Source: Daejeonella sp. (GTDB lineage: Bacteria; Bacteroidota; Bacteroidia; Sphingobacteriales; Sphingobacteriaceae). From it: a stretch of DNA of 64,000 nucleotides. Where the stretch lies: NCBI RefSeq assembly GCF_017495225.1, contig NZ_JAFEIG010000020.1, positions 124,001 to 188,000 of the forward strand. The letters are read 5' to 3'. Positions 15,672 to 20,884 of the stretch are shown here, in pieces. Numbering within the stretch: the stretch's first letter is position 1; each line of letters opens with the position of its first letter. Both the position numbers and the translations under genes were made by a program. The notes under the pieces are model-generated. The model was not told the origin of the DNA, ran no database searches, and saw only the letters and a list, made by a program, of their open reading frames with translations.

Positions 15672-16868
15672 CTATTGGTTTATCAGTGCACTTGCCTCAG
15701 CTAAAAATGCGCCATCCTTTAAAATAGCTTCTTTATTTAAGATTAATTCACTGATTTTAACACCACCCATTATGTAGTTAAAATCAGTGTTTTTATGATC
15801 TTCGCTGATATATTCAAATTGAATTTTATTGATTAAATCCTCATCTATATATCTGATATACAGGGGAATAATATAGTCATTTTGAAGTTTTAATTTAGAT
15901 TCATTGTTTAATTTTTTGTACTCGTATCTATAATCATATCTTAATGCGGCTACATCAGAAAGTACTGCAGAACCGGTCGGGTGACCACCAGCACCTTTTC
16001 CATAAAATAATTGCTGATCTGCAAAAGCGGCCTTTACCGAAACTGCATTGTACTCATTCTCAACATTATATAAAAAATCACTCTTAGGTACAAGTTTTGG
16101 AAGTACATAAAGTGCTAGTTCTTGGTCGTTTAATTTTTTGGCTGTCGGGACTAATTTAATCTTCAATTGATGCTCTTGTGCAAATTGTAAGTCGGCAGCA
16201 GAAAAGTTTTGAATACCAATGTTTAAAACCTCTTCTGGTCTTACAAAAACACCATAAGCATGTGCCGCAGCTATAACTAATTTATACTTCGGATCATAAC
16301 CACCTACATCTAAGGTTGGATCTTTTTCTGCAAACCCTAGATCTTGAGCTTGTTTAAGTGCTACTGTATAATCTAATCCTTCATTTGCAATTTTTGACAG
16401 TATAAAGTTTGATGAACCATTAAATATGCCACTTATTGAATGCAGCAATTCATTATCATAATATTCTTCCAAATTTCTAATGATTGGAATACTTCCACAT
16501 ACCGAACCTTCATAAAGTAGAGAAGTACCATACTCTTTCTGAATATTTACTAATTCATCTAAATGTTCAGCAATCATTTTTTTATTAGCTGAAACAACAT
16601 TTTTGCCACTTTTTAATGCTTTTGTGACTATTTCATAGGCAGCATCAGCATCATTTATTAATTCGATAATTGTATTTATACTTGAGTCATTTAAAATGAC
16701 ATTTGGATCTGTTGTAAATAAATCACTCTCTAGACTACGTTCCTTTTCAGGATTTTTAATGGCAATTTTTTTAATTTCAATATTTAAATCTTTAGTGCTG
16801 ATAATGTCATGTAATCCTTGACCAACTACTCCAAAACCAAATAATCCAATGGTTAACCTTTTACTCAT
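15672..16868 (-). CDS. hom: Homoserine dehydrogenase
   Basis: GLFGFGVVGQGL NAD-binding motif, SANKKMIAEH, GIFNGSSNFILSK, DVGGYDPKYKL, GKGAGGHPTGSAVLSD. Confidence 0.92.
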   Translation of the reverse strand: MSKRLTIGLFGFGVVGQGLHDIISTKDLNIEIKKIAIKNPEKERSLESDLFTTDPNVILNDSSINTIIELINDADAAYEIVTKALKSGKNVVSANKKMIAEHLDELVNIQKEYGTSLLYEGSVCGSIPIIRNLEEYYDNELLHSISGIFNGSSNFILSKIANEGLDYTVALKQAQDLGFAEKDPTLDVGGYDPKYKLVIAAAHAYGVFVRPEEVLNIGIQNFSAADLQFAQEHQLKIKLVPTAKKLNDQELALYVLPKLVPKSDFLYNVENEYNAVSVKAAFADQQLFYGKGAGGHPTGSAVLSDVAALRYDYRYEYKKLNNESKLKLQNDYIIPLYIRYIDEDLINKIQFEYISEDHKNTDFNYIMGGVKISELILNKEAILKDGAFLAEASALINQ

Positions 16869-16869
16869 G

Positions 16870-17931
16870 TTATGCTATTTTATGCAGATTCACTAATTGA
16901 TTCTCAGTAACTGCGCTTTTTATAAAATTTCCAATTTCTTGTGTAAGTATCTCTGTATCAATTAAAAATCCATCGTGTCCATAAAAGGAATCCAAATTAA
17001 AAAAACGTGAATTTTTGATTTTTTCGGCTAAAAAGACCTGCTCTTCTACTGGAAATAAAACATCCTTTGTGATTCCAACCACTAAAGTTTTAGCTTGAAT
17101 TTGTTTTAGAGCATCTTCAATAGAGCTTCTTTTCCTGCCAACATTATGACTATCCATAGCTTTTGTTAAATACCAATAACTATAGGCATTAAATCGTTTT
17201 ATCAATTTCTCACCTTGGTAATTTTGATAGGATGCAGCCTTAAAATCTTTTGTTTTCTCATTGTCTACCTCTATTTGTGTAGAAACATAGGTGCCATATG
17301 TCCGGTAAGAAAGTAATGCAATGCTTCTTGCTACTTTCAATCCTTTACTTCCTCCATCTGGCGAATTAGAGTAAAAGGTACGATCAGAGCTTATGGCCAA
17401 TCGTTGACTTTCATTAAAAGCGATACCCCAAGATGAATGCTGTGCATTGGTAGAAATTAAAACAAGCTTTTTTATACGCTTAGGCTCTGAAATGGCCCAT
17501 TCCATAGCTTGTTGGCCTCCAATAGAACCACCAATTAGTAAATCAATATCCTTTAGATTTAAATGATCAGCAAGCAATTGATGTGCGGCGGCCATATCAC
17601 GTATAGTAAATTCAGGAAATGAAAGATAATAGGGTAGACCCGTGGCAGGATTTAAACTTAGTGGATTACTAGTTCCATAAGGTGAACCCAAAATATTTGC
17701 GCAGACTATAAAATGATCTTTAGGATTAAATAGACGATTTTCACCAAAAAGTCCGCGCCACCAATCAAATACATCTGAATTGCCTGTTAAAGCATGACAA
17801 ACCCAAACCACATTATCTTTTTTAGCATTAAGAGTCCCATAAGTGTGATACTTAATTTCTAAATCCTTTATCTTTTTGCCACTTTCAAGCTGAAAAGGCT
17901 TTTTATGCTTGTAACTATTTTCTGTATTCAT
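16870..17931 (-). CDS. metX: Homoserine O-acetyltransferase
   Basis: Alpha/beta hydrolase with LIGGSIGGQQAMEWA nucleophile region, YHTYGTLNAKKDNVVWVCHALTGNSD, C-terminal GHDGFL. Confidence 0.93.
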   Translation of the reverse strand: MNTENSYKHKKPFQLESGKKIKDLEIKYHTYGTLNAKKDNVVWVCHALTGNSDVFDWWRGLFGENRLFNPKDHFIVCANILGSPYGTSNPLSLNPATGLPYYLSFPEFTIRDMAAAHQLLADHLNLKDIDLLIGGSIGGQQAMEWAISEPKRIKKLVLISTNAQHSSWGIAFNESQRLAISSDRTFYSNSPDGGSKGLKVARSIALLSYRTYGTYVSTQIEVDNEKTKDFKAASYQNYQGEKLIKRFNAYSYWYLTKAMDSHNVGRKRSSIEDALKQIQAKTLVVGITKDVLFPVEEQVFLAEKIKNSRFFNLDSFYGHDGFLIDTEILTQEIGNFIKSAVTENQLVNLHKIA

Positions 17932-17980: not shown

Positions 17981-19291
<1,311 letters not shown>

Positions 19292-19384
19292 TTATTTAAT
19301 TTTTTAATGATGAAAAAAATGAGATGTGAGTAAAACTCAGACTAATAGAGGGTTAAGAAAATAAAAAGAGAATCTTAAATTTCC

Positions 19385-19513
19385 TTAACAACAATTCATA
19401 CATCGCATATACATGAAATTATTCATGTTACGTGTTGAACTTACAAGATTTTGAATTCTGATTCTTTTTCCCGGACTTGGAAATAAAGAAATTTGATTGG
19501 TTTCTTTTTTCAT
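19385..19513 (-). CDS. Putative Met/Cys-rich leader peptide (42 aa) of the metY operon
   Basis: ATG at 19513, TAA at 19385-19387: MKKETNQISLFPSPGKRIRIQNLVSSTRNMNNFMYMRCMNCC*. Lies between the SAM riboswitch and metY, below the ORF-track cutoff. Confidence 0.65.
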   Translation of the reverse strand: MKKETNQISLFPSPGKRIRIQNLVSSTRNMNNFMYMRCMNCC

Positions 19514-19524
19514 TTTATTATTTG

Positions 19525-19627
19525 TTTATAGTTTCCCTTGCGGGACAGGAATTGGCACCTTCCCCGAAACCGATCGGGGGGTTGTCAGTGGGTCATTGAG
19601 CCTGATCTCTCGCCACTTCTGTATAAA
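19525..19627 (-). ncRNA. SAM-I (S-box) riboswitch
   Basis: Minus strand: TTTATAcagAGTGGcgagagatcaggctcaatgaCCCACTgacaaCCCCccgatcggtttcGGGGAAGGTGCCAATTCCTGTCCCGCAAGGGAAACTATAAA. P1 TTTATA/TATAAA, P2 AGTGG/CCACT, P3 CCCC/GGGG, conserved AAGGTGCCAATTCC core, P4 CCC-GCAA-GGG. Confidence 0.9.
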
Positions 19628-19679
19628 TCAATAAATGAATTTATTGAAGACAGATTGGTGTTGCCACCAAATAATATTT

Positions 19680-19712
19680 CAAATATATGGTCAAAAACGT
19701 GTAAAAACCAAA
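19680..19712 (-). promoter_or_regulatory. Bacteroidota-type promoter (-33 TTTG / -7 TAnnTTTG) for the riboswitch-metYX-hom transcript
   Basis: Minus-strand TTTG (19709-19712), 21-nt spacer, TATATTTG (19680-19687), upstream of riboswitch P1. Confidence 0.6.
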
Positions 19713-19759
19713 TTTAATTTTATTTTGTTTGTAATATACTGATTATCAACAATTTAATT

Positions 19760-20884
19760 TTAGGCTATCATTGATAAAGCGTGTTTTAAATCATCTATAA
19801 GGTCTGATGGATTTTCTAAACCTACCGAAACCCGAATTAAATTTTGTGGAGTTTTTGTCTCTGGACCCTCAACAGATGCTCTATGTTCTATTAAGCTTTC
19901 AACACCACCTAAACTGGTAGCTTGAGTAAATATCTTAACTGAATTAACTAGTTTCCTAGCTTCATCAGAGCCTCCTTTAACTAAAAATGATAACATACCT
20001 CCAAAAGAACTCATCTGCTTCTTAGCTATTTCATGTCCTTGGTGGTCAGATAAACCAGGATAATACACTTTTTCTACACCATCATGTGCATTTAAAAAAT
20101 TAGCAATTTGCATAGCATTTTCGGTGTGAGCACGCATTCTATAGGGTAATGTTTTAATCCCACGCACAGTCATATAGCAGTCAAAAGGAGCTGGAACAGC
20201 ACCAGAAAGTACTTGCACATTTCTAATTTTCTTCCAAAAATCATCGTCTTTTAAAGTTGCCAATGCTCCACCAATTACATCGCTATGACCTCCTAAATAT
20301 TTTGTAGTAGAATGCATAACCATATCACATCCTAATTCTAAAGGCCTTTGAAGCATAGGCGTACTAAATGTATTATCGCAAACTACCACTATTCCATTAT
20401 CCTTAGCAATTTTTACTAGAGATTGGATATCGCAAATTTTAAGCAGGGGATTGGATGGTGTTTCAATCCAGATGAGTTTAGTATTATGTCTAATTACTTT
20501 TTTTACAGATTCTAAGTCGGATAAATCAATAAAATCAACTTCGATAATTCCATGAAAAACTTGTAATAATTGATTTCTCAATCCGTGATACATATCATCA
20601 GGTGCAATTATATGAACTCCAGGTCCTAAAGCTTGAAAAACAGCTGCACCAGCAGCATTACCGGAAGAAAACGCCGCTGCCGATTCGGCACCTTCCAATT
20701 GTCCAATTACATTTTCTAATGATTTTCTATTGGGATTGTCGGCACGTGAATAAACATATCCACCCGGATATTCGCCATCTTCACCACGCTCAAAGGTAGT
20801 CGACAAAGTAATTGGCTGAATGGCAGCTTTTGTATGCTCGTCTATTGAATTACCTGCATGTATGGCTATGGTTTCGATTTTCAT
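19760..20884 (-). CDS. Cystathionine gamma-synthase / trans-sulfuration family PLP enzyme
   Basis: METIAIHAG..., VYSRADNPNRKSLE, HSTTKYLGGHSDVIGGA, SLGGVESLIEHRAS, RVSVGLE; start set to ATG 20884 (ORF track used a TTG). Confidence 0.9.
   Translation of the reverse strand: MKIETIAIHAGNSIDEHTKAAIQPITLSTTFERGEDGEYPGGYVYSRADNPNRKSLENVIGQLEGAESAAAFSSGNAAGAAVFQALGPGVHIIAPDDMYHGLRNQLLQVFHGIIEVDFIDLSDLESVKKVIRHNTKLIWIETPSNPLLKICDIQSLVKIAKDNGIVVVCDNTFSTPMLQRPLELGCDMVMHSTTKYLGGHSDVIGGALATLKDDDFWKKIRNVQVLSGAVPAPFDCYMTVRGIKTLPYRMRAHTENAMQIANFLNAHDGVEKVYYPGLSDHQGHEIAKKQMSSFGGMLSFLVKGGSDEARKLVNSVKIFTQATSLGGVESLIEHRASVEGPETKTPQNLIRVSVGLENPSDLIDDLKHALSMIA

Follow-up and report, generated by a model that had tools for sequence, protein, structure and literature searches.

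In mycobacteria, leaderless small open reading frames (ORFs) with polycysteine tracts act as attenuators (PMC4633059; Canestrari et al. 2020, as cited in PMC9094748), and they had been predicted earlier (PMC1262725). Mycobacterial Cys-codon attenuators are reported to have been tested, and they provide the precedent for the sensing of tRNA charging (Canestrari et al. 2020, via PMC9094748). For the actinobacterial Cys upstream ORFs (uORFs), which have no clear intrinsic terminator, Rho has been proposed (PMC1262725). The uORFC-8-2 motif upstream of cysS in Rhodobacterales is a uORF whose tandem Cys codons sit in a stem (PMC8632094). Sensors can also be combined. The Salmonella mgtA and mgtCBR leaders join a Mg2+-responding leader RNA to a Pro-codon ORF and include tandem ATP and Pro attenuators; the signals are additive and independent, and Rho is involved for mgtA (PMC3641672). 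Leader-peptide attenuation has been inferred upstream of amino acid biosynthesis operons of Flavobacterium psychrophilum (PMC9723704). Here we describe a short ORF with a Met/Cys-rich tail, located between a SAM-I riboswitch and metY in Daejeonella sp., and its counterparts in other Bacteroidia.

The leader ORF and its operon

The window is a stretch of 64,000 nucleotides from one Daejeonella sp. contig, and positions are counted from its first letter. The ORF lies between the SAM-I aptamer and metY; a metX-like gene and then a gene for homoserine dehydrogenase come after metY.

19523 to 19629, minus strand: SAM-I riboswitch aptamer (RF00162), an ordinary member of the family (cmscan 62.6 bits, gathering cut-off 44.4)
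19385 to 19513, minus strand: leader ORF, 42 codons plus stop, reading MKKETNQISLFPSPGKRIRIQNLVSSTRNMNNFMYMRCMNCC; conserved in all 16 genus loci and across Bacteroidia
19388 to 19426, minus strand: putative regulatory tail, the last 13 codons, with four Met and three Cys (from the sequence and the tail enrichment statistics)
17981 to 19288, minus strand: metY, O-acetylhomoserine sulfhydrylase (TIGR01326, 682.7 bits, above cut-off)
16870 to 17931, minus strand: metX-like homoserine O-acetyltransferase (best NCBIfam model TIGR01392 MetX, 347 bits, below the 500-bit cut-off)
15672 to 16868, minus strand: homoserine dehydrogenase (NF004976, 326.6 bits, above cut-off; PF00742)

The 42-codon ORF is present exactly as a preliminary description of this DNA had it, with its stop 96 nt ahead of the metY ATG and the same count of Met and Cys within the final 13 codons. 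The distance from P1 to the leader ATG, put there at 11 nt, measures 9 nt. An ORF of at least 15 codons with six or more Met/Cys in its last ten, as many as in the leader ORF, arose in none of 3000 base shuffles of the region between aptamer and metY; judged from its sequence, the leader ORF is not a chance product. Five leader peptides compared with Pfam and NCBIfam matched no family at E values up to 10, and no further Rfam RNA was detected in the gap between aptamer and metY.

Two features were located upstream of the riboswitch.

19680 to 19712, minus strand: match to the Bacteroidota promoter consensus TTTG-N21-TATATTTG (pattern match), predicting a transcription start about 5–8 nt downstream
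19655 to 19670, minus strand: hairpin TTGGTGGCAACACCAA, between promoter and riboswitch and close to where the transcript is expected to begin (terminator-like scan)

The promoter pattern has five matches in the window and is no rarer window-wide than expected by chance; it recurs at the same place in all 16 genus loci and in 37 of 44 sampled SAM–metY loci. Most loci of the genus and of Mucilaginibacter type show an equivalent hairpin, TTGGTAGCAATACCAA, which is conserved at the same place in loci L063 to L078. The conserved promoter, ORF and metY, with the same layout in relatives, place the short ORF in the 5′ leader of a regulated operon on the predicted transcript.

The Met/Cys tail across Bacteroidia

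Leaders were collected with a rule blind to composition, which required an ATG 30–80 nt past the SAM core, a length of 15 codons or more and a stop ahead of metY. The rule gave 125 distinct leaders from Sphingobacteriales, Cytophagales and Saprospiraceae; these are phylogenetically non-independent, and cover many genera and several orders. The last ten codons of these leaders contain on average 5.70 Met/Cys, compared with 0.38 per ten codons elsewhere in the ORF and with 0.26 and 1.34 in the shifted frames. None of 2000 within-ORF permutations reached the Met/Cys total of the tails. Codons for the amino acids of the operon are thus clustered, as in an attenuator leader. The 1250 tail codons comprise 548 Cys and 164 Met; by this count Cys is the main tail codon across the class and Met the second, and the window is unusually Met-rich. 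The leader ATG is found 34–66 nt past the SAM core (median 54, SD 5.2).

The preliminary description had proposed a search for ORFs with Met/Cys-rich tails between SAM-I and metY or metX, and this search was strongly positive in the genus, the family and other Bacteroidia orders. Most SAM–metY loci of the family and of those orders have a comparable ORF. Relatives within Sphingobacteriaceae (Pedobacter, Mucilaginibacter and Sphingobacterium) share the layout, with tails such as CMCMCCCCC, MCCCCC and MCMCCCC, and the leader also occurs in Hymenobacter, Pontibacter, Chryseolinea, Microscillaceae and Saprospiraceae.

A nascent chain that arrests in the exit tunnel in response to a small molecule, be it cysteine, SAM or a thiol, rather than to tRNA charging, might produce a recurring tail of this kind. 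A short Arg-Met-Arg or RMC motif does recur in Sphingobacterium, Hymenobacter and Pedobacter tails, but different genera have no residue order in common, only Met/Cys content. Runs of up to nine consecutive Cys (the longest is from Microscillaceae) with unrelated flanks indicate that codons and not a peptide motif are kept. We consider an arrest peptide unlikely.

Riboswitch and leader as separable modules

SAM-I and leader together are also found ahead of metX (L247 and L248) and, in L256, ahead of an OsmC-like gene with metY next (G158:C14). The location of the OsmC-like gene between leader and metY suggests that it has joined the regulated operon. In L269 a leader with no detected SAM aptamer precedes hom. 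Leaders lacking the riboswitch (L202, L210, L223, L225, L285 and L286) lie upstream of metY in several families and, in the case of L285 and L286, in another class of the phylum. Two tandem Met/Cys-rich short ORFs precede metY in L210, L223, L225, L230, L233 and L234, where Rfam detects no SAM riboswitch; in L230, L233 and L234 the Met/Cys cluster is internal to the ORF and not terminal. SAM-I or SAM-I/IV with no leader is found upstream of metY in Algoriphagus-type genomes, whose SAM–metY loci have no Met/Cys tail, and in other classes. Two family members (g126 and g131) lack both riboswitch and leader. No Met/Cys tail was observed behind the SAM riboswitches of metH (0 of 22) or of nifS-type genes (0 of 12; together 0 of 34). 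The tail-less riboswitches ahead of metH include the other SAM riboswitch in the genome from which the window comes. The distribution supports a tie of the leader to the pathway and not to any single gene, and riboswitch and leader appear to have been gained and lost separately in evolution.

We note some related arrangements in the family. SAM-I occurs upstream of cysteine desulfurase-like starts (NifS/IscS type, DNAATT motif) at 12 loci. In a second SAM-I context, which is Pedobacter-type and was seen at ten loci, a 24-codon ORF about 115 nt past the aptamer, for example MKKTDELKSIDVNPNAGFRMRGVC, has the tail RMRxxC or RMCxxC and precedes a SusC/RagA-type TonB-dependent receptor gene. An ORF ending in ...CFMQGMRCCC lies ahead of another such receptor gene in the Mucilaginibacter-type locus L052. 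Seven Sphingobacterium-type leaders end in Arg-Met-Arg (RMR) with few Cys, perhaps because the leader is decaying in this genus or responds to another signal.

Conservation and drift within the genus

A MetY search located the gene in 16 of 20 genomes of the genus. A SAM core lies upstream of metY in each of the 16 loci, and in each an ATG 42–52 nt past the core opens an ORF of 32–42 codons (exactly 42 in nine loci) that ends in a Met/Cys cluster. The tails include CMCMPCWYCC, CMCMNLNCCC, YMCCCCR and QYMCCCIC. Both the leader ATG and the stop are retained in every genus locus. Five close genus pairs gave dN/dS values for the leader ORF from about 0.6 to well above 1; the body is near 1 and thus free of protein-level constraint. 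The codon-level conservation for which the preliminary description proposed a test holds for the Met/Cys content of the tail and not for the body, whose sequence is not conserved. The C-terminal string RCMNCC, suggested there to be conserved, is not kept; Met/Cys composition and position are. TGT and TGC swap freely at fixed Cys positions in g4 and Cytophagales-type tails. Codon content is kept and the rest of the peptide drifts, as in attenuator leaders, and this combination fits a codon sensor, not a working protein.

A small functional protein, such as a thiol- or metal-binding peptide, could be encoded in the metY leader by happenstance. Because they carry CC, CxC and Met, tails this rich in Cys might coordinate Cu(I) or Zn, and as no known family was matched an unknown one is conceivable. 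The unconstrained and unconserved body, the variable spacing and long runs of Cys, and the strict tie to SAM–metY/metX leaders with absence from other SAM leaders all argue against such a protein, which we regard as very improbable.

RNA structure after the leader stop

Two hairpins were predicted at and after the leader stop.

19352 to 19389, minus strand: predicted hairpin B, GUUAAGGAAAU...AUUUUCUUAAC, overlapping the leader stop codon (fold of 19420 to 19289; same-place hairpins in relatives, covarying in Pedobacter-type leaders)
19327 to 19339, minus strand: predicted small hairpin C, UGAGUUUUACUCA (folding; the Pedobacter-type counterpart, helix 3, covaries)

Taken by itself, the post-stop RNA of the window is no more stably folded than its shuffles (z −0.25); with the tail included (19420 to 19289) z is −1.36. 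Mean z values for the post-stop RNA against dinucleotide shuffles are −1.36 for the genus, −2.22 for Mucilaginibacter-type, −1.62 for Pedobacter-type and −1.69 for other Cytophagales/Saprospiraceae loci. Structure beyond that of shuffles is seen after the stop in groups g1, g3 and g4 and in most Cytophagales, and is not seen in Hymenobacter (five loci). Such excess structure is mostly missing from the leader ORF and from the 60 nt that immediately precede metY. Pedobacter-type loci retain three hairpins with 25 two-sided changes, a score that none of 500 shuffles reached, and RNAalifold returned a consensus structure for them. It returned none for the window's genus or for g4 (Mucilaginibacter-type), probably because loop lengths vary.

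Pairing of the tail with downstream RNA is weakly better than in shuffles and near chance (mean z −0.14 to −0.92), and any defined alternative antiterminator is therefore hypothetical. By eye, the Cys codons seemed to pair well with a complement further downstream, as with AACAACAAT in some members of the genus; this direct pairing did not clearly exceed shuffles and was discarded. That the ORF is an untranslated by-product of RNA structure, its UGU, UGC and AUG repeats kept for pairing within the leader, is hardly credible: the tail codons do form a conserved hairpin in Pedobacter-type loci (helix 1), but the enrichment is frame-specific, ATG and stop persist throughout the genus, tail hairpins differ between genera and tail-to-downstream pairing is near chance.

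A scan of 19200 to 19800 found no intrinsic terminator downstream of the ORF, and no clear U-tracts were seen by eye after the hairpins of relatives. A classical trp/his transcription attenuator would have an intrinsic terminator, and the leader is therefore not classed as trp-type. The post-stop region contains more C than G in 113 of 126 loci (0.229 versus 0.150), a bias that would suit Rho. Directly ahead of metY, the final 40 nt have a high A content (0.442) and little G (0.037).

Proposed mechanism

Position, frame-specific codon bias, a free body and the link to the pathway point to a codon-sensing leader peptide. We are fairly confident that this ORF serves the metY–metX–hom operon as a uORF attenuator, a leader peptide that senses amino acids. 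The attenuator leader proposed in the preliminary description is supported by the comparative test, with the amendments that Cys leads and Met comes second, that no intrinsic terminator was found, and that the two-input logic, with its response to charged tRNA and the order of its two gates, is a prediction. From the leader features and, by analogy, from the mycobacterial precedents, we infer that the tail senses the charging of Cys- and Met-tRNA through ribosome pausing. The sequence itself shows the parts, their order, the biased codons with their conservation and the downstream structure, which covaries in Pedobacter-type loci. Translation of the leader, stalling and the sign of regulation are predictions in what follows, and the output would be either termination, perhaps by Rho, or translation. 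Since the cluster recurs through much of Bacteroidia, the operon is probably under the control of both SAM and the speed at which Cys/Met codons are read.

A single leader RNA would carry, in order, the 5′ hairpin, the SAM-I aptamer, the leader ORF, two hairpins, the A-rich and G-poor stretch and metY. With ample Cys (and Met) the tail would be read fast, the ribosome at the stop would cover the base of the hairpin that starts there, and expression would be low. If charged tRNA-Cys or tRNA-Met ran short, the ribosome would pause in the tail, the downstream RNA would refold and metY would be expressed. The resulting homocysteine would feed the synthesis of Met and, through reverse transsulfuration, that of Cys. 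P1 ends within the ribosome footprint of the leader ATG, and SAM binding would thus probably also limit leader translation. The short, fixed distance between the two suggests that the aptamer and the leader act in series. A more far-reaching proposal is a class-wide two-input device, its modules separately gained and lost, in which the aptamer gates leader initiation, the leader reads Cys/Met-tRNA charging and metY is made only when SAM and sulfur amino acids are both low. We advance it tentatively, at slightly under even chances.

Comparison with known systems

Little is known of translational control by leader peptides in Bacteroidota, a phylum that largely lacks Shine-Dalgarno sites and in which the outputs of riboswitches are often unclear. 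The loci described here provide more than 100 natural examples in one gene context. They occur as leader-only, riboswitch-only and combined forms, and the contribution of each sensor and the mode of output are thus directly testable. The preliminary description knew of no such system in Bacteroidota; our search of the open-access literature similarly found neither Met/Cys leaders in Bacteroidota nor SAM-I coupled to a leader peptide.

The mycobacterial attenuators resemble this leader: a small ORF lies upstream of sulfur genes, its Cys codons are grouped close to the stop, and there is no clear intrinsic terminator. Unlike this leader, they belong to Actinobacteria, use Cys only and have a leaderless start, and no riboswitch is described ahead of them; the leader reported here mixes Met with Cys, lies behind a SAM-I aptamer and is followed by genes of homocysteine synthesis. 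The uORFC-8-2 motif likewise has clustered Cys codons in a stem within a uORF, but an intrinsic terminator stands after it, its target is cysteinyl-tRNA synthetase and it has no riboswitch. The Flavobacterium psychrophilum leader peptides are from the same phylum and precede amino acid operons, but the accessible part of that report describes no Met/Cys leader and no link to a SAM riboswitch. The aptamer is like other SAM-I (S-box, RF00162) aptamers; here a codon-biased ORF fills the usual space of the expression platform. The Salmonella mgtA and mgtCBR leaders similarly unite on one leader RNA a short ORF that senses codons and a part that responds to a metabolite or ion. Signals, genes, phylum and RNA parts differ, and here both signals would belong to one pathway, SAM as its end product and the amino acids. 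The leader would extend the known designs in two ways, by sensing Met together with Cys codons and by combining a codon sensor with a SAM riboswitch for the same pathway.
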